Source of the DNA: Bacillus sp. NP157 | Lineage (GTDB): Bacteria > Pseudomonadota > Gammaproteobacteria > Xanthomonadales > Rhodanobacteraceae | Length of the DNA stretch: 64,000 nt | Direction of reading: 5' to 3' | NCBI GenBank assembly: GCA_018889975.1 | Contig: CP076546.1 | Location: 4,557,001 to 4,621,000, forward strand | Shown here: positions 2,163 through 31,422 of the stretch, piece after piece | Layout of the letters: each line of letters starts with the position of its first letter | Position numbering within the stretch: the stretch's first letter is position 1 | Position numbers and translations under genes: made by a program | Notes under the pieces: model-generated | What the model saw: the letters and a program-made list of their open reading frames with translations, nothing else | Database searches by the model: none | What the model was told of the DNA's origin: nothing

Positions 2163-2164
2163 AG

Positions 2165-4276: not shown

Positions 4277-4485
4277 ATCACCCGTGTCCGCGACGACTCC
4301 ATGAGCGATCCTCCTAGGTACCGTGGAATGCGGTCCCCCGGTAGACGAGGTGTTCCATTGTTTCCATCAACAGCCGCTTCGCTGAAAGGTGCGATTTTGA
4401 GCCAGATAGGGAGACTGGTCGCTAACAGGGGGTGGGAGACTGGCATGAATTTCTGGGTGAAGTCCGCACCTGCTAGCGTTGTCGG

Positions 4486-5847
4486 TCACCCGAACAGGTC
4501 AGTGGGCTCCGCTGAAATTAGCCATGGACGGCTATGCTTAACTTCGTCACGGAAGAACTGAGCGAAAGAGATCACATTTTCATCCTTTGCGTAGTCTGTT
4601 TCCCGAGATTCCTTGAGTGTCTCGGGGACAACAAGGCAAATTCCCTGCGATTTCATGTCGGCGATAGCGTCTGCCGACACTCTGTCGTCGACTGTCGCCA
4701 GGAAGATCCCTCCCGAGAACTTTTCGTGCGAAACCTGTTTCCATCGTTCCCGGAGCGTTGTTTTCGCTGAGAGGACAATGCCCCTTCTGTCGCCGACCAC
4801 TCGTAGCGAAAACGCGTTTGGTAAGACGAAGTCCGGGCGACGCCCCCCCGTAACGGCTTGGGCCTCGAAGTCAACCTTGCCGTCACGCAGAAGTCGTTCG
4901 ATGTGGTGCTCGAACGACCGGCCCGCACGAGACTTCCTGTGCTGACTCGCGCTTAAAAATGTGGCCGTGAGTTGCGGATAGCCGCGTACGATCAGCTCTG
5001 GAAGCGTGCGAGAGTCGTCCGTCAGAATGCGGAGTACGTCAGCTGCGCGGTGGCGTATCTCAGCTCGCTTATACAGGCTGTACTCGATATCCCGGCTTAT
5101 TCGCATGATCGCGTCTCCGGGTCGATCGATAGCGAATGGGTTCAGCGATCCGAGTCCGCTTTCCTTTAGATACTCAGTCTGTGCCATGGCGGCGAGGCGA
5201 TCTGACGCCGGAAGACGCGCTTCTGATGCAATCAGGTGGTGAAGCGTGCCTGACGCAAGCGCGGCGGTCAGCTCTCGGATCAGGACTTCATCATGGTCAT
5301 CGGGCTTTGCTAGCTGGTTCGCCGGATAAAAGAAGGAAAAGTGGAACCATGAGTCGATATCGAAAAGTGTCTCGACGAGTGCGGCCTCTACTCCTGTTGA
5401 GTCCAATACCGCACCCCAGTACTTTCGGAAACCGTTCTCAGCTCCGTCTTCGCCGAGTAAAAAGATTGAGGCGGGCGCCAGGTCCTGGAAGGGCTCCTTC
5501 GGGAGGCGTGTCAGGTGGCCTTCGGCCCCCTTGCCTGAGTAATGAACGAGACGAGACCGAGATTCGTATCCTTGCCCGAGCCACTCGATGAGCACGTCAG
5601 CGTCGAAAATCTCAGGGGTCGCGACGTTCCGATTTTCGGTTTGTGGAAAGAAGTCGGAAATGCGAACTTCCGAAGGGATGTAGACGCCATTTTGTTTGGT
5701 AAACCCGTGGCCAAGCGCGGCTTCCGCCGCCTTAGTCTCGGGGGTATTGGCCCAGGTCCGGTCATTCCGCGCAAGCTTTTTTATCCACAGCCGCTTCGTT
5801 CGAAGGAGCCTATCATGCAGCGTTTCCCAGCCAAGGTCGGTCGTCAC
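4486..5847 (-). CDS. Type II restriction endonuclease, EcoRII C-terminal domain type
   Basis: A protein of 453 residues with a GTG start, supported by AAGGA six bases upstream on the minus strand. The C-terminal third carries the EcoRII-C pattern: SRAGRSFEHHIERLL (306-320), a PDF element with Asp339, and AKTTLRERWKQV with Lys362, which together fit the PD-(D/E)XK catalytic core of this family. Residues 1-290 resemble nothing I recognise for certain and would correspond to the DNA-binding/regulatory half. EcoRII-type enzymes normally accompany a C5-cytosine methyltransferase; none is visible here, so one should lie left of the window, with the rest of the Z1 set. The gene is convergent with the AIPR gene. 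Confidence 0.85.
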   Translation of the reverse strand: MTTDLGWETLHDRLLRTKRLWIKKLARNDRTWANTPETKAAEAALGHGFTKQNGVYIPSEVRISDFFPQTENRNVATPEIFDADVLIEWLGQGYESRSRLVHYSGKGAEGHLTRLPKEPFQDLAPASIFLLGEDGAENGFRKYWGAVLDSTGVEAALVETLFDIDSWFHFSFFYPANQLAKPDDHDEVLIRELTAALASGTLHHLIASEARLPASDRLAAMAQTEYLKESGLGSLNPFAIDRPGDAIMRISRDIEYSLYKRAEIRHRAADVLRILTDDSRTLPELIVRGYPQLTATFLSASQHRKSRAGRSFEHHIERLLRDGKVDFEAQAVTGGRRPDFVLPNAFSLRVVGDRRGIVLSAKTTLRERWKQVSHEKFSGGIFLATVDDRVSADAIADMKSQGICLVVPETLKESRETDYAKDENVISFAQFFRDEVKHSRPWLISAEPTDLFG

Positions 5848-8144: not shown

Positions 8145-9326
8145 CTACTTTAACCGTCGCAGCAGTTCACCCTTCTTCTTGAAGTTGACCGGGAACTTGG
8201 TCCGGTGTCCCTTTGCTTGCGTGTTCTCAAGGACGCCCGTTTCGATCAAGTCGCCCACGCCCGTCATATATTCGGAGAGAAAGAAGTCGCTGTGCTCGAT
8301 CAGATCGGCCATCACGGCGGCGTCTACCTGCAACTCGCTTCCGACATTCGGAAAATGCGCCATCCAATCCCGCCTGACCTGGTCCAGCGATACCTGGCGC
8401 TCGGGCTCATGGGCGTCGGCCGAAAAGATGTCGGGCTGACCTTTCTTTTTCGCAAGGGCATCCAGACGGTACTGCAACTTGAGCCTGGCTTGGGTCCGCG
8501 TCACTTCCTCCGCTTCCTGATGAAATGTCGTTAGTCCTGTCGGATTGGCGGTGGTATAGACCAAGTAGAAGATCACCTTGTCCTTGTCGACGTACTCGAC
8601 CGGCAGCATTGCTGTGCGAAGTCGCTGCTGGTGCGCACCGGCGCAGGCCTGGACGAGCTGGTCGCGGTAGCGGCGCATGAGCGCGCGCTTTCGGTTGCCG
8701 GTTTCCGCCAGCGCCGCGTCCCAATCACTGCCAAACACGGCCTCGAGGTTCGCCCTCTGCTCCGGATGGCCAGTGGCTAGGTTAAGGAAGTTCCACATGA
8801 CGTTGATGAGGAGCTCCGTCTTCGGGCGACGAAGGAGCGGAGCTAGGCTGCTAGCCTCAATGATTCCTTTCCATCCGAAAGGGTCGACGAAAACGAAAGC
8901 AAATTCGTCAGGCTCCAGCCACTTCAGCACGTCGGCGATGCTGCTCTCGAACGACTTACGCCACACTTCGGGTCGGGCGATGCTCGCAGGCGCCGTCTGT
9001 ACGTATCCCTCAAGGAATTCGGCACGCTCACTGTCGGTCTCCATGAAGACCGACCGAAACCGCACGGGCTTGTTCAGCCGTTTCTGCAGGTTATCCTGGC
9101 AGCTGACCATCGTGCGGATGGCGATCCCGGGCGAAGTATCAGAAAGATCAGCCGCCGTTGACTTCCACGGTCCAGCAAAGCCGTCGATGTACGCGATCTT
9201 CGGTGCCCATTGGCCCACGATCATCAGGAGCCGCTCTAGGTAGGCCTCGAGGATGGTGTGTTTGACCAGTGAGTGTTCACGCTCGGGATATTGCTGGAGG
9301 GCCTCTTGGGCCGGACGTGGCTTCAT
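8145..9326 (-). CDS. tcmP: Three-Cys-motif partner protein TcmP
   Basis: A protein of 393 residues. The ATG at 9326 is chosen because AAGGA lies six bases upstream; a longer frame would run back into the neighbouring gene. Motifs of the family are YIDGFAGPWKS near the N-terminus, FMETDSERAEFL, FVFVDPFGWKGI and INVMWNFLN. Their layout suggests a Rossmann-type, methyltransferase-related fold. TcmP proteins are defined by their constant association with the DUF5131/Gp37-Gp68 three-Cys protein, which is the next gene upstream here, 46 bp away. The biochemical role of the pair is not established to my knowledge. Confidence 0.85.
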   Translation of the reverse strand: MKPRPAQEALQQYPEREHSLVKHTILEAYLERLLMIVGQWAPKIAYIDGFAGPWKSTAADLSDTSPGIAIRTMVSCQDNLQKRLNKPVRFRSVFMETDSERAEFLEGYVQTAPASIARPEVWRKSFESSIADVLKWLEPDEFAFVFVDPFGWKGIIEASSLAPLLRRPKTELLINVMWNFLNLATGHPEQRANLEAVFGSDWDAALAETGNRKRALMRRYRDQLVQACAGAHQQRLRTAMLPVEYVDKDKVIFYLVYTTANPTGLTTFHQEAEEVTRTQARLKLQYRLDALAKKKGQPDIFSADAHEPERQVSLDQVRRDWMAHFPNVGSELQVDAAVMADLIEHSDFFLSEYMTGVGDLIETGVLENTQAKGHRTKFPVNFKKKGELLRRLK

Positions 9327-9372
9327 GCTGCATCCTTGTCGAAAGGGGGCGGTCCTTGTTCCTGCTTTTGCG

Positions 9373-10125
9373 TTACGACGCGGCGGCCGCCACCGCGTCG
9401 GGCATTCCATTCCATTGTCGACCGTCGAGTTCCCGCCCGTTGGCCTTTTTCGAGCGGCGCTTACCATCGGCCCCCCAACCGCCCCACTGCTTGAAGAAGA
9501 AGGTCGCGCCCTGCGACTCGCACTGCCGGCGAATCGTGCGCGCCCATTCCGGACTCATCGGCCGGGCTTTCGGACCAGATTCTCCGCCGACGATGACCCA
9601 GTGAATACCGCTGAGATCCAGGGTACCGAGATCCTCCAGCAGCGGCTCGCAGGAAAGAAAGCGGATCTTCGCCGGGATGTTTCGCAATGCGTCGATGCGC
9701 GGCACGCCGTGGCGGCGGTTCTCCACCGAGACTCCCAGCCAGACGTTCGATGGCACAGGTCGGCGAGCGAAGTACTTGGCCAAGCGCTCGTGCCGCTTGG
9801 TCAGGATCTGGTAGCGGTGCTGCGGAGTGCTCGCGATGACAGCCATGACCTGATCCAAGAAGCTATCCGGGATCCGTTCGTGGAATAGGTCGCTCATCGA
9901 GTTGACGAAATAGATCGTGGCCTTCTTACGACGGGTCGGTTCATCAAGCCGATCGGGCAGCAGATTCAGGCGAAAGCCATTGCGGTACGCATCCAGGCCC
10001 ATGGCCTGCAGGCGGCGGGCGAGCGTCTCGGCATAGCAGTGCTTACAGCCGGGCGATACCTTGGTGCATCCGATGGTCGGGTTCCAAGTCTGCTCGGTCC
10101 ATTCGATCCGTGAGCTCGTGGTCAT
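9373..10125 (-). CDS. Phage Gp37/Gp68 family (DUF5131) three-Cys-motif protein
   Basis: A protein of 250 residues. The start at 10125 has GGAGGGG upstream; a longer frame adds 12 unlikely residues. Near the N-terminus, WNPTIGC20TKVSPGC27KHC30YA is the three-Cys signature, which resembles a radical-SAM cluster loop, and later IHWVIVGGESGPKARPM is a conserved family block. Members occur in phages and bacterial islands together with TcmP. The pair and the downstream C-H-D protein are all on the minus strand with short gaps and probably form one operon. Iron-sulphur chemistry is an inference from the Cys spacing. Confidence 0.87.
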   Translation of the reverse strand: MTTSSRIEWTEQTWNPTIGCTKVSPGCKHCYAETLARRLQAMGLDAYRNGFRLNLLPDRLDEPTRRKKATIYFVNSMSDLFHERIPDSFLDQVMAVIASTPQHRYQILTKRHERLAKYFARRPVPSNVWLGVSVENRRHGVPRIDALRNIPAKIRFLSCEPLLEDLGTLDLSGIHWVIVGGESGPKARPMSPEWARTIRRQCESQGATFFFKQWGGWGADGKRRSKKANGRELDGRQWNGMPDAVAAAAS

Positions 10126-10394
10126 ATCAGCCCCTCCCTCCCACCTATCATAACTATCCAAGCGGATGGCCGCCTAGACCGTCTTCCGGGTAACCGTGTT
10201 GCAGCATCGGTTGATCAACGTTGCCGGTGAGGCCCAGACAATGACCGCGGCCTCATGATTGCCTTCACGTTAATGAGTCGCAAGGCTGCTCGACTGAGAA
10301 TCGCGAACCCGGCACCACAGGCTTCAAAGGGGTAGCAAGGTCCATCAAACGCCCTCATCCCCCGCATGATCCCCTCACACCAAGGGGAAGCCAG

Positions 10395-11199: not shown

Positions 11200-11964
11200 A
11201 TGTCAGCCAAAGCCTCTCCACTCAAAGCCCTGGCCCACGCTACGGTGGCCGCCGTGCTCCTCACGGCTTCCATGGGCCACGCCCGGGAAACCCCGCCACC
11301 GTGGCTTCGCAAAGACATCGTGCCCTCGCTCATGATGGAAGCCGTGGACCAGGTCTCTGGCGACAGCATGCTCAATGCCACGCCGGCCACCTACGATGTC
11401 GCGACCCAGAGCTGGTCGGTCACGTTCATGCCCGTAAACGGCACACCCTTCATCGGGACGCTCGACGAAACGACAGGCAAGGTCTGTGCGCACCGCCCCA
11501 ACCAGACCGAGTGCCTGGGTACGGGAAGCGCGAAGATCAGCCTCGACCTGGCAAAGGCATCCTACGCCCGGCAGGAAGAGGGCAGACGCAACCCCGCGCC
11601 CGACATGTCAAACCTGTGGCTGACCGTCATCCGCTACGCGCAGCCACCCGAGCACTTGCCATCGGGCCCGCGAACCATCTACCTGGTACTCAAGGACACG
11701 AACGACGATCGCGTTGTTCCGGCCGCCTCGTTAATCGACAGCATCCACATCGACGGCGTGGCCTTCGAAGCCGCCAGCAACGCTCCCGACACCCCCCATC
11801 TCTCGTGGCTGGTCATCGGTCAGCCGTTACCCAGGCCCGATGGCGACTACGACGTCACCTACGGCCAGATGAGCGGCATCGGCGGCCAAAGCTCGACACT
11901 GCGTATGACCCACACGACCGCCGCCTGGCGTGTCGTCTCACGGCAACAGGGCGACATGATGTGA
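11200..11964 (+). CDS. Secreted protein of unknown function, paralogue of the protein at 41995-42789
   Basis: A protein of 254 residues with an N-terminal signal peptide (KALAHATVAAVLLTASMGHA) and therefore probably periplasmic. The start at 11200 follows AAGGA at 11186-11190. It shares a chain of blocks with the 264-residue protein at 41995: GTLDETTGKVC, NLWLTV, PAASLIDS, and PLPRPDGDYDVTYG followed by WRVVS near the end. I do not recognise a named family. Two Cys in the middle (VCAHRPNQTEC) are conserved in the paralogue and may form a disulphide. Confidence 0.75.
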   Translation: MSAKASPLKALAHATVAAVLLTASMGHARETPPPWLRKDIVPSLMMEAVDQVSGDSMLNATPATYDVATQSWSVTFMPVNGTPFIGTLDETTGKVCAHRPNQTECLGTGSAKISLDLAKASYARQEEGRRNPAPDMSNLWLTVIRYAQPPEHLPSGPRTIYLVLKDTNDDRVVPAASLIDSIHIDGVAFEAASNAPDTPHLSWLVIGQPLPRPDGDYDVTYGQMSGIGGQSSTLRMTHTTAAWRVVSRQQGDMM

Positions 11965-11987
11965 TTGCGTGGTCCTGTGCCGTTGGG

Positions 11988-12419
11988 ATGACGCCGTCAC
12001 TTAATAAGCGATCGGTCTTACGACTCGCTATTTGGCTAAGCGTTGTGTCGGCCAGCCACGCTACAGCAGCTTGCTACAGCGGTCATCCCGATATCCGCTC
12101 TGAGCGGCGCGACAGCGAGTTTGTGATCTTGGGGAACGTGACATCAAGCAAAGATGTCATGTCCAAAGATGAGCCCGAGTTTGTCGATCAGACGGTCTAC
12201 ACCGTTGCCGTACTCCATAGTTTCAAAGGCAAGCCAGCACGCAACATAAAGATCAAGTCGGTCAACACATCGACGCGTTTTCCCATGGATATTGGGCAGA
12301 CCTATCTCTTGTTCGTGATGTCGGATACCGACGGCGGCTACTTTGTCGACTCATGTGGAAATTCGGGAGCGACTGCCAAGAAGAGCGACGCTGAGAAGGA
12401 GCTCGAGTCGGGCCAGTGA
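11988..12419 (+). CDS. Small secreted hypothetical protein
   Basis: A protein of 143 residues with a signal peptide ending near SHATAACYS, then about 115 residues with Cys at the mature N-terminus and again near the end (VDSCGNSG). The layout (N-terminal Cys, a strand-rich VILGNVTS, TVYTVAVLHSFKG, then DIGQTYLLFV) resembles NTR/TIMP-like small OB-fold domains, but this is a structural impression only. The gene follows the preceding secreted-protein gene by 23 bp and may be co-transcribed with it. No ribosome site stands out. Confidence 0.6.
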   Translation: MTPSLNKRSVLRLAIWLSVVSASHATAACYSGHPDIRSERRDSEFVILGNVTSSKDVMSKDEPEFVDQTVYTVAVLHSFKGKPARNIKIKSVNTSTRFPMDIGQTYLLFVMSDTDGGYFVDSCGNSGATAKKSDAEKELESGQ

Positions 12420-12586
12420 GCGATACGCCCCTCGGTCTGAAGGGCGCGTCCCGCGTCGCGTCGATGCCAGTCGTCCAGGCTGCGATTGCCGGATGGCGGT
12501 AACAAGGGAGGACCTACTCCTTCCATCGGCCCCGAGCGGCGGAGGGGCCCTTGCAGTATTAAATCTACATATGTTGAAATGACCCC

Positions 12587-12886
12587 ATGAAGCGCACCCG
12601 CCAACCCTCAGCCCAAATGGACAAGCTCCTCGCCGTCCTGGTCGAGCAGCCCGGCCAGTGGTTCTACGGCTACCCCCTGATGAAGGCCGCAGGCCTCCAA
12701 TCCGGAACGCTGTATCCGTTGCTGGTCCGCATGGAAGGGCAGGGTCTGGTCGAGTCCGAATGGCGCGAACCTGAGCAGCCTGGTCGTCCGCCCCGGCATG
12801 CCTATCGCCTTACCGCGGCAGGTGTGACCCTGGCCCGGGCCTCGGGCCAGCGCGATGCCGATCCGGATGGGGTCCTGTCCACATGA
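12587..12886 (+). CDS. PadR family transcriptional regulator
   Basis: A protein of 99 residues, the size of a minimal PadR regulator. YGYPLMKAAGLQSGTLYPLLVRMEGQGLVESEW is the winged helix, with the typical SGTLYPLL recognition-helix sequence; HAYRLTAAG is the wing. The palindromic ACATATGT at 12567-12574, just upstream, is a reasonable autoregulatory site. The stop overlaps the start of the downstream membrane protein (ATGA), a common arrangement in which PadR controls a membrane partner. The ligand is unknown. Confidence 0.87.
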   Translation: MKRTRQPSAQMDKLLAVLVEQPGQWFYGYPLMKAAGLQSGTLYPLLVRMEGQGLVESEWREPEQPGRPPRHAYRLTAAGVTLARASGQRDADPDGVLST

Positions 12887-13488
12887 CTCGCTGGCTTGCC
12901 GTGTTCCTGATGAAGCGTGCGGCGCGCTGGTCGCGCCATCCCTGGCTAGGCGAAGCCATGCTGGCCGAGTATCAGGAAGCCGACGCAGACGGCCATGGGC
13001 TGCGCTTCGCCGTGGGTTGCCTATGGGCGTCAGTGACGACAGCCATCGAAGGCCGCCAAGCCTTCCCGACCTGGCTCCGCATCGCAGTAGCGATCCTCTT
13101 TTTCGCGCCCTTCGCCCTCTTCGAACTGGGCTGCAGCTGGAGCGCCATCCGCTTCATTGCGACAGGCCATGAGCACTACTACGCCACGCTCATGCAGGGC
13201 AGTCAGGCCCAGCAAGCCATCGCCGAGGCCTATCGCCGTGCGACCCCTCTGCTGACCTTCCTGCTCATCGCCATTGCCGCCTGCCAGGCTGCGCTGGTCT
13301 GGCTCCTGGCAAGCGGTCGCATCGCAGCTGCACGCCAGCTCGTGCGATGCACCCTGCTATGCGGCCTGCTCGTCTCGGTGGTCGCCATGACCCTTGGCAT
13401 GCACTCAACCGCCTACCTGATCTACCTGGGCATCCCCCTGGCGCAATGGGCCATGGTCCGCTGGATGGACAACCGCGCCGCCCGTTGA
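12883..13488 (+). CDS. Membrane protein translationally coupled to PadR
   Basis: A protein of 201 residues. The N-terminal 45 residues (RHPWLGEAMLAEYQEADADG and LRFAVGCLWASV) are the soluble prefix often seen in PadR-linked membrane proteins. Four hydrophobic segments follow, near residues 67-90, 112-135, 148-168 and 172-192. The ATGA overlap with the PadR gene shows coupling. The substrate or function is unknown; the sequence supports an inner-membrane location only. Confidence 0.75.
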   Translation: MTRWLAVFLMKRAARWSRHPWLGEAMLAEYQEADADGHGLRFAVGCLWASVTTAIEGRQAFPTWLRIAVAILFFAPFALFELGCSWSAIRFIATGHEHYYATLMQGSQAQQAIAEAYRRATPLLTFLLIAIAACQAALVWLLASGRIAAARQLVRCTLLCGLLVSVVAMTLGMHSTAYLIYLGIPLAQWAMVRWMDNRAAR

Positions 13489-13523
13489 ACGCGCTTCTTC
13501 CCAACGAACGATAAGGACGATCG

Positions 13524-14228
13524 ATGTACGCAGGTATGGTGATACTGGCCCTGGCCGCAGCCACGGCAGCTACCGTTCCCTTCGATGGAAGCAGGCTCAG
13601 GGCAGGGGACACCTGCTACGACATCACGGTCAGGGGCAAGACCGTAGGCAGCACCCGGCAAAGCATCAAGGCCACCGAAACAAAGGGGCGCCCTACCTGG
13701 GACATCACCGTCCATCAGCTTCAGCCCAGCAGCGGCTTCGACATGACCGACCACTTCATCGTCGATCGCACCACCATGCGACCGCTGTCCCTGGAAAGCG
13801 ATCGAGGCAAGGAGCGAAGCGAGAAAGGCTGGCACCGTATCCGCCTGGCCTACACGGACCAGGGCGTCACTGGCACCCGCGAAACCTCGACAGGCACCAC
13901 CCCCATCAATGTCGCCTTCGACCATCCCGTATGGGACGGCAACCTATGGGGCCTGACCTTCGCCGCACTTCCCCTGAAAGAGGGCGCCACCTTCACCGTC
14001 CCCGTCTGGCAATACGACAAGGGAGCCGGTCAGTTCACGATCAAGGTCGAGGGCAAGGAAACCGTCCACACCCCGCAAGGCGACGTCAGCGCATGGAAGA
14101 TCCTCGCCGGCGACTCACCCGACCAGCCGGTGCATTACAAGATTGCGGTGTCACCGCCGGCGGAGTTGGGGTATGAGGCGGGGCCGTTTGCGCAGGTGAT
14201 GGGCGCTTGTGGGAAAGGCGCAGGCTAG
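13524..14228 (+). CDS. Secreted hypothetical protein (DUF3108-like layout)
   Basis: A protein of 234 residues with a short N-terminal hydrophobic signal (MVILALAAATAATV) and AAGGA five bases before the ATG. The mature part is strand-rich, with FIVDRTTMRPLSLE, FDHPVWDGNLWGLTFAALPL and VEGKETVHTPQGDVSAWKI, an order reminiscent of periplasmic DUF3108-type lipocalin-like proteins. It follows the PadR-membrane pair by 35 bp on the same strand and may belong to that transcript. Its role is not known. Confidence 0.7.
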   Translation: MYAGMVILALAAATAATVPFDGSRLRAGDTCYDITVRGKTVGSTRQSIKATETKGRPTWDITVHQLQPSSGFDMTDHFIVDRTTMRPLSLESDRGKERSEKGWHRIRLAYTDQGVTGTRETSTGTTPINVAFDHPVWDGNLWGLTFAALPLKEGATFTVPVWQYDKGAGQFTIKVEGKETVHTPQGDVSAWKILAGDSPDQPVHYKIAVSPPAELGYEAGPFAQVMGACGKGAG

Positions 14229-14392
14229 CCACTCCGAAGGCTCGCCGCCTAAAGTTGCCGGCGGCGTGGCCGTTAAGCCACTTCAGGGAATCGCCAGCGG
14301 TAGGGAAGCGGTGCTGTTTTCAGACTGACACCACCTGTCGCATCGGCGATCCAGTATGCGGTCAACGCACTGGCGAACGAGGTGGCACAGGG

Positions 14393-15268
14393 ATGAATGA
14401 CCGAGAGCACGAGACGCTAGCCCTTCGGCTGGCTGAAATCCTGCTTCGGCTCAACCAGGGAGATTCCCTTGGTCGTCAAGAGCTTGCTGATCAGTTCGGC
14501 GTCAGTGAGCGCACGATATATCGCGACCTCAACCGTTTGGCGAACATCGTCGAGCGACGCCAGGACGGTCGTTACCAGATCGTTCCCACCTACCGCGGAA
14601 AGTTCAGCTCTTCTGACCTGGACTTCTTCGCCCGACTTGCCGGCGTAAGTGACCTCTTCCCGCCGGGAGAGCGGCGAAACCTCGCGTCCCTGCTCGATAC
14701 CAGCAATCCCGCAATCTTCCTCGTAAAGGGCCAGCAATACGAAGCGGTCCCTCACGACGGCACCCTGTTCTATGGCCTCGCTGCCGCCATCCGCGGGCAG
14801 GTTCGCTGCCGCATCGCCTATGCCGGGCGGGAGCGTGTCGTCGATCCGTACCGCCTCGTCAACAACAAGGGCATCTGGTACCTCGCCGCTACCCAGGACA
14901 ATGAGCTCCGGGCGTTCGCTCTAAGCCGCATCGATTCATTCCACGCTACCGACGAGGACTTCCCGTCGAGCGCAGCTATCCAGCGCTCGATCGACGAGGA
15001 GGACGATGTCTGGTTCAGCGGCACGCATTTCGAAGTGGTCCTCAAAGTCGCCAGCAGGGCCGCGTACTACTTCCAACGCCGCAAGCTGGTTCCCCGTCAG
15101 GAGATTACCGATGAGTCCGACGGTGAGCTGACGATTCGCGCCACGGTGAGCCATTCGAGCCAGGTTCTTCCGATCGTCCGTTACTGGATTCCACATGTGC
15201 GACTCGTTGAACCCGCGTGGCTTCGCGACGAACTGATCGCCGAGCTCACCGGATACGCGAGCTGCTGA
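14393..15268 (+). CDS. HTH/WYL-domain transcriptional regulator heading a three- or four-gene operon
   Basis: A protein of 291 residues. The start at 14393 is chosen over an upstream in-frame codon because the first recognisable helix begins there and GAGG lies upstream. Residues 8-55 form a DeoR-type winged helix (LGRQELADQFGVSERTIYRDLNRL). The WYL domain is in the middle (RCRIAYAGRERVVDPYRLVNNKGIWYLAAT), followed by a C-terminal WCX-like extension. The layout matches WYL regulators that repress phage-defence loci (BrxR, CapW). Here it stands directly before two unrecognised large genes, so it most likely controls them. The WYL ligand cannot be told from sequence. Confidence 0.85.
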   Translation: MNDREHETLALRLAEILLRLNQGDSLGRQELADQFGVSERTIYRDLNRLANIVERRQDGRYQIVPTYRGKFSSSDLDFFARLAGVSDLFPPGERRNLASLLDTSNPAIFLVKGQQYEAVPHDGTLFYGLAAAIRGQVRCRIAYAGRERVVDPYRLVNNKGIWYLAATQDNELRAFALSRIDSFHATDEDFPSSAAIQRSIDEEDDVWFSGTHFEVVLKVASRAAYYFQRRKLVPRQEITDESDGELTIRATVSHSSQVLPIVRYWIPHVRLVEPAWLRDELIAELTGYASC

Positions 15269-15310
15269 CCCGCTTTTTCACAAGTCAAATCGAAAGAAGG
15301 ATTGGAAACC

Positions 15311-15405
15311 ATGTTCAAGATCATCGGCGCCACGGTTGTTTACGGGTTTGCAAGGGCCTCGTGCGCCTTCTCCAGGTGACCTCCATCAATACGGCTGCGG
15401 AGTAA
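15311..15405 (+). pseudogene. Very short ORF, possibly frameshifted small hydrophobic protein
   Basis: After AAGGA (15297-15301 region) an ATG at 15311 opens a 22-codon frame, MFKIIGATVVYGFARASCAF and a few more, ending at 15379. One base out of frame, the DNA continues as CKGLVRLLQVTSINTAAE and stops at 15405, four bases before the next gene. Joined, the two parts would make a coherent ~30-residue hydrophobic peptide. It may be a small membrane protein broken by a single-base change, a true 22-residue peptide, or chance. Low confidence. Confidence 0.3.
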
Positions 15406-15408
15406 CCC

Positions 15409-16842
15409 ATGTTTCGCGAACCGCATAAGTCGAGCGCAGAAGCTACCGCTGCCAAGGCAGCCCAGTATTGCCAGTTCTGGCCCCGAGCGGCCGCCGAGCA
15501 GATGTTGAAGCTCGTTGAAGAGTGCAAGCTGTCGGACGCACTCCTTGCCGATGTAACGGCCACGAATCAGGGGCTCGGCGTCAAGGCGGGCTTCGCTGCG
15601 GAAGTGCTGCACAAGGAGACGTTCAACCTTGACGCCATCCTGAAGGATGATTCTGTTCGCGCGTTCACGGACAAGTGCAACGAAACGCCGCTCAGGTCGA
15701 ATCACCCGACACACGATATCGTGCTCGTGGACGGGGGTGAGACTGTCGGAAGCGCACAACTGAAGTACTACAAGGATGCCGACACGACTGCCAAGCAGTT
15801 CCGCGAGCTTGGCACGGATGGATCGCCGTATTACAAGGACACGGAGTCCATGGTCGGTCCGTCGGACCAGCTGCAAGGCATCAAGGACGCGGCACGGAAA
15901 ACGGAGCTGAAGGAGCAGGCGAACCGTTCGCCGGTAGCGGATGCAGCAAAGGACGTTCAGGCCAAGGCAACTGATCGCCTCAGCCACGACGGCGTCGAGT
16001 CGAAGCCGCTTACGAAGAATGAAGCCGAGCAGCTTGCAAAGGGCGACGACGCGGCACGGCAGAAGCACGAGGACATCCAGGGCGTCTACAAGACAACGTC
16101 GACTGTCCAGCAAAGTCTACGGGCGGCAAAGTCGGCGGCGATCGTAACGACGGTGGTCGCGGGTACGATCAACGTCATCAAGGCGCTCGACGACGTGCGT
16201 AGCGGTCGACTCGAGCCAAAGGAAGCAGTCGCACAGGTCTTGAAAGAGACGGGAATCGCTGCGGCGGATGCCGCGCTTAAGGCAGGTGCGGGAACGGCAG
16301 TGGTCAGCCTGACTGCCAAGGCGCTTCCGAACGTATTCAGCGGCTCCGCGCTCCAGACTGGCCTGGCGACGGGCGGAATTGCCGGCGCGACGATTTGTGC
16401 CGTCGACCTTGCCGAATGCCTCGTGCTTGTCGCCATGGGGAAGATGACGCCTGCACAGCTTGAAACGCGTACGGGGAAGAACATCTTGCAGACGACCGCA
16501 GGCGTTTTCGGTTCTGCCGTAGGCGGCGCGGTGGGCGCGCCAGCGGGCCCGATCGGCGTCTTGGTCGGCAGCTTCGTGGGCGGCATGATCGCCTCTGTAG
16601 CTGCAACGGTTGCCATTGAAAATGGCATCGAAAAGCCATTCAACGAATCTCTTGCCAATGCGACGAACATGATCGACGCGCAGACTCTCATGTCTCGCAG
16701 TGTGGATTACCTGGTTGTAGGGCAGCGTGTCTACGGCCAGTTGGCTGTGGAACTTGCCGTGTCAGAAAAAGTATTCAGCGAGCGCATGGTCGCTATCCAC
16801 GACGCTTCCGCGACCACTCGCAAGCGTATTGAAAATCTCTGA
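15409..16842 (+). CDS. Unrecognised protein: QxK-type nuclease-like N-terminal part plus glycine-rich hydrophobic C-terminal part
   Basis: A protein of 477 residues. Residues 55-155 contain GFAAEVLHKETFN (Glu65), THDIVLVDGG (Asp103) and SAQLKYYKD (Gln117-x-Lys119). The order Glu, Asp, Gln-x-Lys is what PD-(D/E)XK enzymes of the Mrr type, which use QxK, display. Residues 155-230 are charged and helical. Residues 230-415 hold long Ala/Gly-rich hydrophobic stretches (AAIVTTVVAGTINV, GGAVGAPAGPIGVLVGSFVGG), a glycine-zipper-like, possibly membrane-inserting part. A C-terminal helix follows. There is no signal peptide. It lies 14 bp before the next gene and follows a WYL regulator. Nuclease activity and membrane insertion are inferences. 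Confidence 0.72.
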   Translation: MFREPHKSSAEATAAKAAQYCQFWPRAAAEQMLKLVEECKLSDALLADVTATNQGLGVKAGFAAEVLHKETFNLDAILKDDSVRAFTDKCNETPLRSNHPTHDIVLVDGGETVGSAQLKYYKDADTTAKQFRELGTDGSPYYKDTESMVGPSDQLQGIKDAARKTELKEQANRSPVADAAKDVQAKATDRLSHDGVESKPLTKNEAEQLAKGDDAARQKHEDIQGVYKTTSTVQQSLRAAKSAAIVTTVVAGTINVIKALDDVRSGRLEPKEAVAQVLKETGIAAADAALKAGAGTAVVSLTAKALPNVFSGSALQTGLATGGIAGATICAVDLAECLVLVAMGKMTPAQLETRTGKNILQTTAGVFGSAVGGAVGAPAGPIGVLVGSFVGGMIASVAATVAIENGIEKPFNESLANATNMIDAQTLMSRSVDYLVVGQRVYGQLAVELAVSEKVFSERMVAIHDASATTRKRIENL

Positions 16843-16856
16843 GGGACGTACGGACA

Positions 16857-18881
16857 ATGTTAGCCAAGAATGAACTGAGCTCTGGCGAGGTTGAGCAGGT
16901 CGACGCCCTTATCGCGCGAGCGAAGGCGAACCATAATCTCGCCCAGCAGCTGGCCGTGGATGCGTTTAGCTTGCTCCGTCAATCCGAGCTGGGCCACGGA
17001 ACGATCGCCGACGCGGGGTTTACTCGTCGCTTTTATTTTGCAGTGACTGGCAAGCAGCATGAACTTATGCGTGCGGGGCAGGGCAACCTTATCCAGATGC
17101 AGAGGATCGCCTTTGGTTACCTTGCTGCGTTGCAGGACCAAAATCTCCTGCAAGCCCATGCGGTTGCCGTGGTCCGTCGGGATCTTGACGACCTTGCGGT
17201 TGGTCTCGAAGAAGTTGTGGGGAATGTCTCTGCCCTGATTGAGGCATTCGATCGTCGTACGACCGACTTGCGCGAACAGCTTGCATGTCTGAATTGGCTT
17301 GCTCGCCTGGAATTGTTGGACCTGGCACATCAGGGTCCGTCCATGCGCGCCATCCACCTCGTCTTCGACTACGTCGTAGCCATGAAGAAGGCGGGTATCG
17401 GCTTTGATGCGATCGAGAGAAGGGACGATCTCGAAGTCGCATTCAAGCGGTCGGGCGTAGACCCGCATCGATCCGTCGGACTGGATGAGCTTTTCCTTGA
17501 GATTGAATCAGATACGTCGGTGAGCGCGCGTTCCGTGTCTTCGCTTGCCGGTACGTTGGGAGCGATCAACGGATCACTCGTATTTGAGCGTGTGCCTTCG
17601 TTGGCGGCGCATGCGTTCTATTCCTTCGAGTCTGTATATCCTCAGATTGAGGCAGTTCGCGATGTTGTGGACGGTGAGCTTGGCGATCGTGCGGTAGCTA
17701 GCGTAATCCGGCGGGCCATCCGTGGAGCGAGCGATAGGTACACGATCCTCGAGTTCGCCAGGGAGCTTTGCGCAGCGCTGTTTTTTGCGCTCGACGTGGC
17801 GGCGCCAATCCAGCTGAGCCTCCCGTCCGAACACTTGGCGCTGGAGCGGTCCGACCTCTCAGCTTCTCCTGAGCCAGTCCGCGCTCTTCCAGAGTCGTCC
17901 GTGGACGAAATCCTTGGCAATCTCGTCCCGATCACTCGCCACTCCTACCTCGCCTCGGTGCAGGACGTGGAGGGGCGTAGGAGGTACATCGAATCTCTCG
18001 CCATCGTGCTGGCCCCGCAAGAGGCTATCGATAAGGAACAGCGAAGCTATCTCGCATCTCTTGGGCGTGCGTTTGGTTGCCGGGACGTCTTGCGGGATAC
18101 CGAGATCCGAATCGGAGCTTTGGATCAGGAGTATGTGGAAGAAGTTATCGAGCTGGTGCGTGAGCCGACTGCGTGCATGGCCTGGCTCACGGACGCGGCA
18201 TTCCTCCTTACCCTGGCAGATGAGCGCCTTGCGTCGTCGCGGGCGAAGATCGTCGCGATCGGGAAGGCGTTGAATTTGCCGGCGTCATTCGTGGGAGAGC
18301 TAATTGATCAGGTTGGACGCCTTGCTGATGAGTCGTCCGTCGGCGAGTTGAACGACCTGATCAAGACCATGTCGGTGCACTCCATGGCGTGGAAGGTGAT
18401 CGTTGATTTTCGGAAGGTTTCCTTCCGAGGTGCCTTTGAAAAAGAACTCGCCGGACTCGTCGAGTCCGATGGCGTCGAGCTCGGTAAGCTTCGTGACGAG
18501 CTTCGTGCGCTGAAGGGTGAAGTGGATGAATGTGGCGAATTGTCAGGAGAGGTTTCGGATATTTTCCGAAAGAACTTCAGCCGAAAATTCGTCGTCAGTA
18601 GCTTCGACTCCCTCAAGGCGAAGGTGCGCGCACACGCGCTCACGCTTGAATCAGGTATGGCGCCCGCCCAGGCTTCTCTGGTCGCCTTCGGTCTTGTTGA
18701 TGCAGAGTTTCCGTCAAGTTCGGACCGGATCCCTGAGGGGTCCAAGGACGTCGAGGCACCTGCGTGGAAGGGCGCGATGACGAGCGCGGTGAAGCAACTC
18801 GAATGGTGTCTGGATGAGCTCGTATCTCAGCGGGCGTTGCTGTCCAGGCTTCTTGGCGAGGTGGAACGCGGTAACTGGTGA
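16857..18881 (+). CDS. Unrecognised 674-residue helical protein with TerB-like segments
   Basis: Almost wholly helical. Residues 80-160 are amphipathic and coiled-coil-like. Residues 371-407 (RRYIESLAIVLAPQEAIDKEQRSYLASLGRAFG) and 441-480 (AWLTDAAFLLTLADERLASSRAKIVAIGKALNLP) each follow the TerB pattern, in which a hydrophobic helix, an acidic turn and a second helix bind metal or partners. TerB-like domains recur in stress and phage-defence proteins such as Shango. Residues 540-565 form another coiled coil. No ATPase or nuclease motif is seen. It starts 14 bp after the QxK-protein gene and closes the operon. The name of the family, if any, is unknown to me. Confidence 0.72.
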   Translation: MLAKNELSSGEVEQVDALIARAKANHNLAQQLAVDAFSLLRQSELGHGTIADAGFTRRFYFAVTGKQHELMRAGQGNLIQMQRIAFGYLAALQDQNLLQAHAVAVVRRDLDDLAVGLEEVVGNVSALIEAFDRRTTDLREQLACLNWLARLELLDLAHQGPSMRAIHLVFDYVVAMKKAGIGFDAIERRDDLEVAFKRSGVDPHRSVGLDELFLEIESDTSVSARSVSSLAGTLGAINGSLVFERVPSLAAHAFYSFESVYPQIEAVRDVVDGELGDRAVASVIRRAIRGASDRYTILEFARELCAALFFALDVAAPIQLSLPSEHLALERSDLSASPEPVRALPESSVDEILGNLVPITRHSYLASVQDVEGRRRYIESLAIVLAPQEAIDKEQRSYLASLGRAFGCRDVLRDTEIRIGALDQEYVEEVIELVREPTACMAWLTDAAFLLTLADERLASSRAKIVAIGKALNLPASFVGELIDQVGRLADESSVGELNDLIKTMSVHSMAWKVIVDFRKVSFRGAFEKELAGLVESDGVELGKLRDELRALKGEVDECGELSGEVSDIFRKNFSRKFVVSSFDSLKAKVRAHALTLESGMAPAQASLVAFGLVDAEFPSSSDRIPEGSKDVEAPAWKGAMTSAVKQLEWCLDELVSQRALLSRLLGEVERGNW

Positions 18882-27325: not shown

Positions 27326-27352
27326 GTGAGAGTCATCTCACTTTTCTATGCT
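27326..27352 (+). promoter_or_regulatory. Inverted repeat plus -10-like box before the effector locus
   Basis: GTGAGA and TCTCAC form a perfect 6-bp inverted repeat around GTCA (27326-27341), and TATGCT follows at 27347-27352, about 80 bp before the first 191-residue protein gene. The half-sites resemble a CRP/Clp box with spacing two bases too wide, so a different factor is likely. Suggestive only. Confidence 0.35.
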
Positions 27353-27431
27353 AATCATGAGGATGCTTGATGCCCTGCGCGAACGTTGCGTACACTCGCA
27401 CGTCAAGGATTGTCGATCTGGAGGATCAAGA

Positions 27432-28007
27432 ATGGACCTTTCTGCCCACGACCGCATTTTGGCAGGGCCGCTTTACGGAACTGAGCCCTGGCCGCTGCGC
27501 TTCAATACGCATCAATTCAGCGCCGTCTGCTTCAATACGTTGGCGTGCAGCATCGTCTACAACCGATTCGAATTTGGCACTCGCAAAGTCGATCAGTTCG
27601 GCGTATCCAGCGACGCCGCTTCAGGACCTTTGCCTTCCGGCGGCTTGAATTACGCTTGGAACGGCGCTCACACCATTCCGCCGAAAAACGGAAAAACCTT
27701 CCCGGGCCCAGTCGACATCTCATGGACATCGATGGATGGAGAAGATCTCCATGCTGTCGTCGACCTTGACGAGATGTTCCGTGAGCGACTCGTTCTTCAT
27801 CATGTGACGCGCGATGAGGTCAAGGAGCCGTGGCTTCGCGCAAAATCTTTTAACCCTGTCAGTCCGCACATACTTATCGAGGTCAATGACAGGACCGTCA
27901 ACGTCTACATGCAAGCAACAGTCGCTACTGAGGCGGAGCAGATCCAAGGCAATCCGAACTCACATATCCGCAGCGACGTGATGCTGGCCTGGAGTCATCG
28001 TTACTGA
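27432..28007 (+). CDS. Putative immunity protein of the lipase effector, copy A (191 residues)
   Basis: A protein of 191 residues, with the start at 27432 after GGAGGATC. It belongs to a family of three equal-length paralogues here (also 30847 and 31438). Shared blocks are LAGPLYGTEPWPLRFNTHQF, CFNTLACSIVYN, FPGP, WTSMDG, VDLDEMFRERLVLH, EVNDRTVNVYM and DVMLAWSH. There is no signal peptide or membrane segment. It ends 16 bp before the effector start. Clustering of several copies around one toxic effector is typical of immunity genes, but effectors of this class act outside the cytoplasm, so an adaptor or regulatory job is also possible. Copy C is its closest relative. Confidence 0.7.
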   Translation: MDLSAHDRILAGPLYGTEPWPLRFNTHQFSAVCFNTLACSIVYNRFEFGTRKVDQFGVSSDAASGPLPSGGLNYAWNGAHTIPPKNGKTFPGPVDISWTSMDGEDLHAVVDLDEMFRERLVLHHVTRDEVKEPWLRAKSFNPVSPHILIEVNDRTVNVYMQATVATEAEQIQGNPNSHIRSDVMLAWSHRY

Positions 28008-28023
28008 GCAGGGAGTGCTCCGC

Positions 28024-30681
28024 ATGGATAAGATTAAGATCGCTGCCGATGGTGCGCCGGTAGACCGCGGCGGCCACAACTACGTCGGTGCTGAAACGTT
28101 AGCCCAGTTCAAGGACGCCAGCGAGCAGCTATCTCGCTTCAAGGCGCCTATTTTCCTGCACGCCAACGACATGACGGAGCGGCTCTATGTCGTTGCGTTT
28201 GATGGAACCGGAAATAATCAATTTGAGGATCCCGAGCACGCAACGAACGTCGCGAAGATTAGCAATGAGCTGACTCAGGCAGTCAAGCTTGATCCGCACC
28301 GACTCCATGTCAATTACATCGAAGGGCCCGGGACGCGCGGAGAATGGCTCGACCGGAAGCTCGACACTATCAAGGGGTCCTCATTCGAATCCAACATTAC
28401 GCAGGCTTATAACGATCTAGTTATAAGGGCTAATCGATGGATGGTTGAAGATCCGGACGCCAAGATTCGTGTTCAGTCCATCGGCTTCAGCCGCGGAGCG
28501 AGCCAAGTCGCTGGGTTCGCTAACCTGCTTCACGGCAATGGTATCCCCGACCTATCGAGCGAAATAATCGCGGCGGATGGTACCAGGGGTTTCGAACGAT
28601 ACTTCGTTGCGCCCGGAAAGACCCCGCAAGCGGTCCTTCTGTTTGACCCGGTGGCCACCGGGGCTCCAATGGAGTTCGATCGAAGGCTGCCCTCTTCGGT
28701 AGTATCAGGTTTGCAAATCACGGCGAAGAACGAACTCCGTGCGACATTTCCGTCGGATCAGTTGATCCGTCCGGGTCTTTCGGAGGACGGTCGCTTCCTC
28801 AACATAACCGTGCCTGGCGCGCACTCTGACGTCGGCGGCGGGTATCTCCGTAACGGCCTGTCAATTCGCTGCGGAAATCTGGGTCGTGATTACTGTAATG
28901 CATTTCATGAAGTGCCGAAGCTCACGAAAGAGTTTGAGCCGACAGACCAGCGATTGAATGTCGTGCATCGGTCGTGGGAAGGAGAGCATGTCTTCCGTCT
29001 TGACCCAAGGCAAGGAGTGCGCGGGTTTCCCAGTGGGACGAATCAGATACTTGCTCCGAGCCATGTCGACGGTGTCGGGCCAGCGCCCCATGGGCCCGCG
29101 GCCATGAACCCTTCGCTTTCTATGCCGATGCGCAACATCCCGATCGGAAAGCCAAATCTGGAACCAGTCGGAGTATCGGACGTTCGCCCGACAGCAGGCC
29201 AACTTGCCGAGGCAGGGCGAGCGCCGAGTTACGCCCCTGCGATCGGCAAGGCTGTAGGCCTCGGCCTTACCGCAGTGGACATCGTCGATACCGGCCGAGC
29301 CGTTACACATGCGGCAGATACGGGGAACGAGACTGGCGCGACATCCCAGATCGTCCATTTTGCTGGTCGCAATGCCGGCGGTTGGGCCGGCGCGGCAATG
29401 TTCGCATCGGCCGCGGGCGCGGCCGGCATCGAGACGGGTCCGGGAGCCTTGATCGCTACTGGCATCGGCGGGATCGTTGGTGCAGTCGGCGGCGCACATC
29501 TCGCTGACGAATACGATATCTACCGGTCGACTCATCAGGAGGATGCTCACGGTCGAACCTGGGAACTCGATCCTGAGCATGGCTGGGCGCGGAAGCTGCC
29601 ACCGCTTCCAGAGACACCTCATGGTGAGATCATCGTGGCCGATGCCGCGCTGTCCCGGCGACTCTCTTATCAGGCAACCAATACGGCGACCGAGATAGCG
29701 CTGTCCAAGGAGTATCAGGCCAAGGATCCATACAAGCAGCCACCGGCACCGACCGACGCACCCGTGGCCCATGCGACCTACTGGTCACGTGACGCGGAGA
29801 AGCACACCTGGTCGCGTGAAGTCACCGACCTGATTCTCGAGCACGACATAAGGGTCAAACACATCGAGCACGCCACCCCCGAGAAGGCTGCGCAGCTCGA
29901 TGCCAGCGCGTTGGATACGATTCGACAGAACGTAGCTCAGTCTCCTGTCGGCGTCGCGGAACGCTACATCGCTGCCTACGAACAGAACGGCTGGAAGGAG
30001 CTCGGTGCAATTCCGCCTGCGGTCCAGGATGTGCTGCGCGCGCCTCGTGACCAGGTACTTGCATCGGATGGCCATGCCTATACGCATGAACCCGGTGACA
30101 CATGGTCTCGCGAGCGCTTGATCGGAAAAGCCGAAGCGCCCGAACGCTTGCATGGTGAGTTGGCCATCGCTGAAACCATGACGCAGGAGACGCGTCTTCG
30201 AGTCAATGAAGAAGTGGCCTCCATCGATCGTTCGCCTGCTGGCAAACCAGGCACGCCGCCGAGCCTGGATGCCGCCACCCATCCGGACCATGCGATGTTC
30301 AACCAGGCCCGATCGCATCTCGCCGAGGTCGACAAGGGCTTGGGCCGAGCGCCCGACGAGTACACGGACAACATGGCTGCCGCACTCACCGTCCAGGCAA
30401 GAAAAGACGGGCTGTCACGCATCGACCAAGTCGCACTGTCTGACGACGGCAAGACCATGTGGGCAGTCCAGACTCCACCGGGGCGAACAGATCACTTGTT
30501 CGATCTTCAAACCAAGGTGCCGACTTCTGAAGCGATGACGTCGATGGAGCAAAGCTCTGCCAAGTGGCCGCAGGCCATGCAGCAGTTCCAGGCCAACGAG
30601 CAACAGGCGGCTATCGACCAGCAGCAGGCGCAACAGCAGCGGCAGCAGCAGGATGCGATGGGGCATGGGCGATCGATGTAA
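28024..30681 (+). CDS. Type IV secretion killing effector (X-Tfe-like): DUF2235/Tle1-like lipase with C-terminal XVIPCD-like domain
   Basis: A protein of 885 residues; ATG 28024 with GGGAG eight bases upstream is preferred over GTG 28015. Residues 50-275 form the DUF2235 hydrolase: YVVAFDGTGNN, SIGFSRGAS with Ser156, LLFDPV with Asp208 and VPGAHSDVGGGY with His267, a complete Ser-Asp-His set as in Tle1 phospholipases. Residues ~430-475 are Ala/Gly-rich and hydrophobic. Residues 751-885 are XVIPCD-like: HPDHAMFNQA, AAALTVQARKDGLSRIDQV, DDGKTMWAVQ and a Gln-rich tail. XVIPCD recruits effectors to VirD4 of the xanthomonad bacteria-killing T4SS. The T4SS itself is outside the window. Confidence 0.85.
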   Translation: MDKIKIAADGAPVDRGGHNYVGAETLAQFKDASEQLSRFKAPIFLHANDMTERLYVVAFDGTGNNQFEDPEHATNVAKISNELTQAVKLDPHRLHVNYIEGPGTRGEWLDRKLDTIKGSSFESNITQAYNDLVIRANRWMVEDPDAKIRVQSIGFSRGASQVAGFANLLHGNGIPDLSSEIIAADGTRGFERYFVAPGKTPQAVLLFDPVATGAPMEFDRRLPSSVVSGLQITAKNELRATFPSDQLIRPGLSEDGRFLNITVPGAHSDVGGGYLRNGLSIRCGNLGRDYCNAFHEVPKLTKEFEPTDQRLNVVHRSWEGEHVFRLDPRQGVRGFPSGTNQILAPSHVDGVGPAPHGPAAMNPSLSMPMRNIPIGKPNLEPVGVSDVRPTAGQLAEAGRAPSYAPAIGKAVGLGLTAVDIVDTGRAVTHAADTGNETGATSQIVHFAGRNAGGWAGAAMFASAAGAAGIETGPGALIATGIGGIVGAVGGAHLADEYDIYRSTHQEDAHGRTWELDPEHGWARKLPPLPETPHGEIIVADAALSRRLSYQATNTATEIALSKEYQAKDPYKQPPAPTDAPVAHATYWSRDAEKHTWSREVTDLILEHDIRVKHIEHATPEKAAQLDASALDTIRQNVAQSPVGVAERYIAAYEQNGWKELGAIPPAVQDVLRAPRDQVLASDGHAYTHEPGDTWSRERLIGKAEAPERLHGELAIAETMTQETRLRVNEEVASIDRSPAGKPGTPPSLDAATHPDHAMFNQARSHLAEVDKGLGRAPDEYTDNMAAALTVQARKDGLSRIDQVALSDDGKTMWAVQTPPGRTDHLFDLQTKVPTSEAMTSMEQSSAKWPQAMQQFQANEQQAAIDQQQAQQQRQQQDAMGHGRSM

Positions 30682-30846: not shown

Positions 30847-31422
30847 ATGCTGACTTACAAACCCGATCCCGCGCTTGCCGGACCCTTGTTTGGCAAAGAC
30901 CCGTGGCCACTGAGGTTCCATACCCACACGTTCAGCGCCTGGTGCTTCAACACTCTCGCTTGCAGCATCGTTTACAACCATGCTGAATTCGGAACGCGAC
31001 ATCGCGATTACGAAGGGAATATTCGGGACAAGCCTTCAGGTCCCATCCCAGCGGACGATTGGCGCCAACGTTGGGAAGGCGGTCACGGTATCGTGCCGTA
31101 CGACGGTAATACCTTCCCCACAGACGTCGAGTTGAAGTGGACCTCGCTCGATGGGTCCGACCACGCTACGCGTCTGGACCTCGATGAGATGTTCAAAGAA
31201 CGCCTTATCGTGCACAGGGTCGCGAGGGAAGACGTGCTGGAGACCTGGCTGGATGTGAAGTCCATCAAGCCCGTCAGCCCTAGCATTTATGTCGAGGTCG
31301 ACGACAGAACGATCAACGTTTACATGCGGGCGATGATTTTCTTGAAGAACACCGATTCCACTGGTCAACCACGATCCAGGATGCAGGACGAGTTGATCCT
31401 CGCGTGGACCCACACTTACTGA
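30847..31422 (+). CDS. Putative immunity protein of the lipase effector, copy B (191 residues)
   Basis: A protein of 191 residues with GGAGG before the ATG. It carries the same blocks as copies A and C (AGPLFGKDPWPLRFHTHTF, CFNTLACSIVYN, WTSLDG, LDLDEMFKERLIVHRV, EVDDRTINVYMRA) but is the most divergent of the three, especially near the C-terminus, where the NPNSHIR block is replaced by QPRSRMQ. There is no signal peptide. Its closeness to the effector and its divergence suggest that it may be matched to a different effector variant than A and C. Confidence 0.7.
   Translation: MLTYKPDPALAGPLFGKDPWPLRFHTHTFSAWCFNTLACSIVYNHAEFGTRHRDYEGNIRDKPSGPIPADDWRQRWEGGHGIVPYDGNTFPTDVELKWTSLDGSDHATRLDLDEMFKERLIVHRVAREDVLETWLDVKSIKPVSPSIYVEVDDRTINVYMRAMIFLKNTDSTGQPRSRMQDELILAWTHTY

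Follow-up and report, generated by a model that had tools for sequence, protein, structure and literature searches.

Three adjacent genes in a 64,000-nucleotide stretch of contig CP076546.1 (positions 4,557,001 to 4,621,000 of the forward strand; hereafter the window, with coordinates counted from its first letter) raise the question of whether they form an immune system and, if so, of what kind. They encode a WYL-domain regulator (gene 1), a protein with a nuclease-like core and a glycine-rich hydrophobic region (gene 2), and a large helical protein (gene 3), and a sequence-only reading of the window had put them forward as a candidate defence system. We lean towards the view that the locus is a horizontally mobile three-gene immune operon, in which a predicted and probably membrane-associated nuclease, silenced by the WYL protein, would act with an exchangeable sensor or adaptor in defence against phages.

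The three open reading frames (ORFs) are intact and all lie on the plus strand, with intergenic gaps of 140 bp between genes 1 and 2 and 14 bp between genes 2 and 3, confirming the co-directional arrangement and the spacing of 14–140 bp in the sequence-only reading. That reading was also right that third codon positions are less G/C-rich here than in the backbone, although the departure is only moderate for genes 1 and 2: the third-position G/C content (GC3) of genes 1, 2 and 3 is 0.71, 0.71 and 0.65, against mostly 0.73–0.87 in flanking backbone genes.

A gene pair that is kept together and moves

Genes 2 and 3 are a real, horizontally mobile unit present in distantly related bacteria, because the two genes are kept together, their phylogenies match and their presence is patchy. 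Searches of plasmids with tblastn place the genes on two Cronobacter plasmids in the same WYL–gene 2–gene 3 order as in the window, with gene 2 being 45% identical, and 23 further loci came to light when about 85,000 species genomes were scanned, giving 25 related loci in total. The scan loci are in the gamma- and betaproteobacterial genera Pseudomonas, Vibrio, Acinetobacter, Pectobacterium, Burkholderia, Caballeronia, Cupriavidus, Ralstonia, Massilia, Duganella and Giesbergeria, in Desulfovibrio/Mailhella and Treponema, and in metagenome-assembled genomes labelled Nitrospirae, Kiritimatiellae and Lactobacillales. Of the related loci, 24 have room for a gene 3 homologue after gene 2, and 23 of these carry one there; the exception is a Treponema locus (L029), where the position is occupied by a 702-residue protein that phmmer does not recognise and whose C-terminus is unrelated. 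Pairwise distances among the gene 2 proteins and among the gene 3 N-termini have a correlation of 0.98 over 18 loci, a value that none of 2000 permutations reached. The homologues occur neither alone nor in housekeeping operons.

The locus was not found in 22 other species of the window's genus, and there is no other full-length homologue among 369 genomes of the class and 398 of the phylum, the few other matches being short stretches; nor were gene 2 homologues found in phage and viral contigs. An empty-site comparison within the genus gave no clean insertion boundary, as the genes flanking the locus are not syntenic in genome G940. All three genes of the Pectobacterium locus (L025) are broken by frameshifts, reflecting either decay or assembly error. 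We also note an extra upstream gene in loci of the Desulfovibrio/Mailhella type (5708–6811 in L026, 5864–6991 in L027 and 6175–6792 in L031); it is weakly similar to gene 3 in L031 and L027 (phmmer E values of 9e-5 and 0.003, respectively), shows a hydrophobic segment rich in glycine in L026 and L031, and is a possible fourth component.

Predicted architecture of the paired proteins

Neither gene 2 nor gene 3 matches a Pfam family even at an E value of 10, or an NCBIfam family above cut-off, and the only PADLOC family reached is PDC-M72B, by gene 2 alone (E = 0.12). An AlphaFold2 model of gene 2, built on a 22-sequence alignment, has predicted local distance difference test (pLDDT) scores mostly of 85–97 over residues 40–220, which contain a helix (56–78), three strands (84–87, 104–108 and 111–118), a second helix (124–131), a fourth strand (147–149) and a third helix (152–172). 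Glu65 is part of the first helix, Asp103 stands where the second strand begins and Gln117-Leu-Lys119 where the third ends, which is the PD-(D/E)XK arrangement in its QxK variant; Glu65, Asp103, Gln117 and Lys119 are each at least 90% conserved among the 22 aligned homologues. The sequence-only reading had picked out these residues, in this order, as a sign of a nuclease core, and the model predicts such a core with high confidence. The core, with its motif intact, is also present in more distant proteins with other C-termini, encoded on Acinetobacter, Polaromonas and Deinococcus plasmids and in another gammaproteobacterial genome. The identification of gene 2 as a QxK-type PD-(D/E)XK nuclease is thus supported by prediction and by motif conservation.

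Two of these relatives, from Acinetobacter (L007, 6013–11164) and Polaromonas (L008, 5848–11170), have the gene 2-type domain at the head of another sort of plasmid locus, with helicase or restriction-type genes beside it and an AAA_11/AAA_12 helicase gene lying downstream; these plasmid loci are possibly a sister system.

The long glycine/alanine-rich hydrophobic region read from the window's gene 2 is present in all full-length homologues, as judged by hydropathy, and residues 239–403 hold three such segments and an internal duplication (half-versus-half profile E value of 0.001, against 0.25–0.65 for controls). This hydrophobicity suggests that the protein is probably membrane-associated. 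A region so retained and duplicated would also fit a protein that is not a nuclease at all, its core being a catalytically dead or DNA-binding relative and its hydrophobic part permeabilising the membrane on a signal from gene 3; the lack of significant fold matches to nucleases points the same way. We consider this very unlikely, since the four motif residues are at least 90% conserved and are kept in the distant relatives that have different C-termini.

Gene 3 is predicted by AlphaFold2 to be all-helical (mean pLDDT 72.9), with long N-terminal helices, a helical middle and a coiled-coil end. The claim that it is helical therefore stands, but the two TerB-like segments that went with it are only weakly borne out: the Pfam TerB profile matches neither the window protein nor any of 18 members, and there is one weak fold match, to the structure 2h5n, which we take to be TerB-like. 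Most gene 3 relatives are 1064–1089 residues long and have a C-terminal domain of 300 residues that bears Asp-box motifs (S-x-D-x-x-x-W), of which there are 53 in 15 related sequences compared with at most 15 in shuffles, the sequences being homologous and the counts not independent. These repeat motifs suggest a sialidase-like beta-propeller; profile and sequence searches of Pfam and the PDB left the region unrecognised and returned nothing informative. Proteins of the Desulfovibrio group are without the helical middle, and the window protein keeps the helical middle and has no Asp-box domain. We rejected the idea that the window protein is a truncated copy of the longer form, as there is no Asp-box remnant in the next 5 kb. 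The conserved N-terminus is thus followed by an Asp-box repeat domain, by unrelated C-termini or, in the window, by none of these, and such swapping of C-termini would show the pattern expected of a recognition or adaptor protein.

The tight co-inheritance of the pair, its occurrence on the Cronobacter plasmids and its patchy distribution could also be those of a toxin-antitoxin-like module that has no part in phage sensing and mainly stabilises mobile DNA, with gene 2 as a toxin (a nuclease, a membrane-disrupting protein or both), gene 3 as its neutraliser and the WYL protein as an autoregulator. We think this fairly unlikely, as gene 3 is as large as gene 2 or larger and has exchangeable C-terminal modules, unlike usual antitoxins, and it follows gene 2; the recruitment of WYL regulators, moreover, is typical of defence loci (PMC9122601).

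The features of the locus are collected in Table 1. A 22-residue ORF between genes 1 and 2 (15311–15376; MFKIIGATVVYGFA; MFKIIGATVVYGFARASCAFSR), whose +1 frame runs on as GLVRLLQVTSINTAAE to 15405, a few bases short of gene 2, resembles a frameshifted small membrane protein; it was dropped, having no counterpart in any related locus.

Table 1. Features of the three-gene locus, in window coordinates
Feature	Position	Strand	Basis
Gene 1, WYL-domain transcription regulator (helix-turn-helix (HTH) + WYL + WCX), 291 residues, presumed operon repressor	14393–15268	+	Pfam; WYL adjacency in 18/25 loci
Gene 2, 477 residues, predicted PD-(D/E)XK (QxK) nuclease with duplicated glycine-rich hydrophobic region	15409–16842	+	22-homologue alignment; AlphaFold2
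Gene 2 residues 40–220, nuclease-like core, alpha-beta-beta-beta-alpha-beta	15526–16068	+	pLDDT mostly 85–97; domain occurs with other C-termini
Gene 2 Glu65, first putative catalytic residue, within helix 56–78	15601–15603	+	At least 90% conserved
Gene 2 Asp103, putative metal ligand, start of strand 104–108	15715–15717	+	At least 90% conserved
Gene 2 Gln117-Leu118-Lys119, QxK motif, end of strand 111–118	15757–15765	+	Gln117 and Lys119 at least 90% conserved
Gene 2 residues 239–403, three glycine/alanine-rich hydrophobic segments, internal duplication (hydrophobic helix - xGx(T/E)xxE - helix)	16123–16617	+	Hydropathy; half-versus-half profile match
Gene 3, 674-residue all-helical protein (coiled coil, TerB-like helical middle, coiled coil), putative sensor/adaptor	16857–18881	+	Adjacency; AlphaFold2; 2h5n fold match
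Gene 3 residues 9–151, N-terminal long helices, most conserved part of the family	16881–17309	+	Invariant or near-invariant columns; helices 9–51, 55–64, 66–151

WYL control and the case for immunity

Gene 1 is a WYL regulator, as had been read from the letters, with Pfam matches above the curated cut-off to an N-terminal HTH (HTH_11, 1.1e-7), to WYL (5.2e-13) and to WCX (3.4e-13). The expectation that all three genes travel together was also borne out, since in addition to the near-constant pairing of genes 2 and 3 a WYL gene is the immediate neighbour, either upstream or divergent, at 18 of 25 loci (window included, with at least 2 kb upstream required); a WYL gene is present about 3 kb off in two others (L023 and L027). 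With BLASTP at 1e-10 the regulators remain in at least five unconnected groups: one containing the window, Cronobacter, Massilia, Duganella and Acinetobacter proteins, and others from Pseudomonas, from Burkholderia, Caballeronia and Ralstonia (where the gene is divergent), from Desulfovibrio and Mailhella, and from Treponema; the WYL gene that lies farther off in L023 is weakly linked to several of these groups. WYL control of a fixed effector pair thus seems to have been acquired repeatedly, and because the same kind of switch has been acquired again and again, silencing of the pair would seem to matter. There are characterised precedents in BrxR with BREX (PMC9122601) and CapW with CBASS (PMC9122588), which resemble gene 1 in that an HTH-WYL-WCX regulator heads the operon and recurs in homologous loci; they differ in that the genes controlled here are neither BREX nor CBASS genes, and no operator was found. 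We note also that the Acinetobacter locus L024 has a second, divergent WYL gene (4339–5238) about 1.8 kb upstream of the operon's own, with a phmmer E value of 1.3e-64 to the window WYL protein.

If the locus is an immune operon, gene 1 would keep its expression low until an infection-linked signal relieves repression, as may be supposed from BrxR and CapW. Gene 3, as a coiled-coil and TerB-like adaptor, would then recognise an infection cue or a phage structure and position or release the nuclease, its C-terminal module being exchangeable as expected of a recognition part. Gene 2, tethered to the inner membrane or oligomerised by its duplicated hydrophobic region, would upon recognition cut phage DNA near the membrane, perhaps as SNIPE does (PMC13190303); alternatively, it may cut host DNA in abortive infection.

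The points in favour of this immune operon are the retention of the pair in 25 loci of several phyla, the distance correlation of 0.98, the patchiness, the recurrent WYL genes, the E-D-QxK core, the presence of restriction-type folds among the weak Foldseek matches, the modular gene 3, the defence-type neighbours and a weak link to PDC-M72B. Several observations weigh against it. No phenotype is known. Several loci are without an adjacent WYL gene, none being seen at L012, L014, L020, L022 and L028, and no WYL operator was recognised, with no inverted repeat of at least 8 in 14200–14420 or 15240–15420; obvious inverted-repeat operators are not present for all BrxR homologues either (PMC9122601). 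Foldseek with the whole gene 2 model is not significant, because over half of the model is of low confidence, and its nuclease matches have E values of at least 1; the weak PDB list nevertheless includes DrdV and a restriction-endonuclease-like structure, and the weak matches among short viral targets include Mrr, RecU, VSR and a restriction endonuclease. Profile comparison of the core with Mrr gave no significant match (hhalign E value of 0.37). The hydrophobic segments of gene 2 are only marginal as transmembrane helices, so that its membrane tethering is something we infer, and the most convincing compact PDB match of gene 3, to 2h5n, is not significant (probability 0.84, template modelling score of 0.56 on the target, E = 2.1). 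Finally, 119 neighbour proteins match 120 PADLOC families (at 1e-10), and an equal number of proteins drawn from arbitrary stretches of genome match 98; so coarse a count does not tell neighbours from control, and we make no claim of statistical defence-island enrichment.

Another reading makes the trio an operon through which the WYL protein governs a response to DNA damage or envelope stress, with no connection to phage; gene 2 would act in stress on host DNA or the host membrane, and gene 3 would serve as its scaffold. In its favour, DNA-damage responses are under the control of other WYL regulators, among them PafBC, Ter-type domains have links with stress, and enrichment for defence-gene neighbours is not statistically shown. 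Such an operon seems quite unlikely, as the locus combines extreme patchiness with a wide phyletic spread, its regulator groups are exchanged while genes 2 and 3 stay paired, and domains are exchanged within gene 3.

Relationship to known systems and neighbouring genes

No named system matches the trio in PADLOC-DB 2.0.0, Pfam or NCBIfam, and we found no description of a WYL protein with TerB or a glycine zipper in defence in the open-access literature (subscription papers and newer model sets being outside the scope of the search). We regard the trio as an operon under WYL control in which the effector, a predicted nuclease, has a new architecture and its partner is exchangeable; it is described nowhere in the libraries and open-access papers searched, in agreement with the sequence-only reading, which knew of no system of this composition. 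Profile comparison of the two large proteins gave a weak in-register link to PDC-M72B but no significant Mrr or TerB profile match.

The nearest relative is this PDC-M72B, part of the PADLOC candidate PDC-M72 (the ankyrin protein M72A with M72B), itself an untested candidate. It has a helix Glu, an Asp and QLK in register with gene 2, and a hydrophobic C-terminus with the gene 2-type hairpin G-x-(I/L)-T-x-x-(E/Q)-A; against the gene 2 profile it is sub-significant, with E values of 0.06 for the core and 0.011 for the hairpin (controls 0.2–0.95). Its partner is an ankyrin protein, not gene 3, and there is no ankyrin gene in the window trio. In the Treponema locus L029, a 1354-residue ankyrin-repeat protein (11768–15832) whose best PADLOC match is PDC-M72A is encoded directly downstream of the pair. 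It is possible, if doubtful, that a nuclease of this kind, with QLK and a hydrophobic tail rich in glycine, is the effector shared throughout a broad, modular immune class, usually under a WYL switch, in which interchangeable partners (coiled-coil/TerB proteins with or without Asp-box domains, the ankyrin proteins of PDC-M72, and the helicase-bearing plasmid loci) would sense different infection cues.

Other comparisons are more distant. Mrr (type IV restriction) and other QxK PD-(D/E)XK nucleases have the core order helix(E)-strand-strand(D)-strand(QxK)-helix-strand that is predicted for gene 2, but there is no significant sequence or profile similarity, and gene 2 carries a fused hydrophobic region and has gene 3 as its partner. 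SNIPE is a membrane-bound nuclease that combines DUF4041 and a GIY-YIG nuclease in one polypeptide (Nature 2026, PMC13190303); the likeness is by analogy, a nuclease being joined to a membrane-targeting part and a diversifying recognition part, and SNIPE differs in being one protein and shares no domain with the window locus. Shango consists of a TerB-like protein, a helicase and an ATPase (PMC10250203), and the trio may resemble it in having a TerB-like helical protein, going by the one weak fold match of gene 3; the trio is without helicase or ATPase and has no sequence similarity to it.

Should the trio prove to defend its hosts, it would be a multi-phylum immune system whose effector, a QLK nuclease on a glycine-rich hydrophobic tether, is absent from the model libraries searched, and the naturally exchanged C-terminal modules of gene 3 would allow a direct test of whether the swapped part sets phage specificity. 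The locus also illustrates how WYL regulators seem to have been recruited, time and again, to an effector pair that itself stays the same.

Neighbours clearly of defence type, some of them specific multi-gene cases, are present in the window and at L010, L014 and L020. The window itself has, at 26–5847, a Z1/MzaC-like gene that is truncated where the window starts, genes resembling DUF4420/MzaD and AIPR/MzaE, and then a convergent gene for an EcoRII-C type restriction protein, with GC3 of about 0.6, which is a probable Mza-like defence locus. On the minus strand at 8145–10161, there is a candidate defence pair, in which one protein matches PDC-M30A and the other, a DUF5131 protein, matches PDC-M30B. 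At L010 the neighbour is a ZacB-like protein, and the Vibrio (L014, 15–7810) and Giesbergeria (L020, 11–6530) loci, which have no adjacent WYL gene, have the same DruE-like helicase and UvrD helicase directly upstream; the gene 2 and gene 3 copies of these two loci are not sisters.

Elsewhere in the window, 28015–30681 encodes an X-Tfes effector with an XVIPCD signal and a Tle1-like phospholipase domain. It is flanked by genes for three similar small proteins (27348–28007, 30847–31422 and 31438–32013), which are probably duplicated immunity genes of this interbacterial type IV secretion effector.

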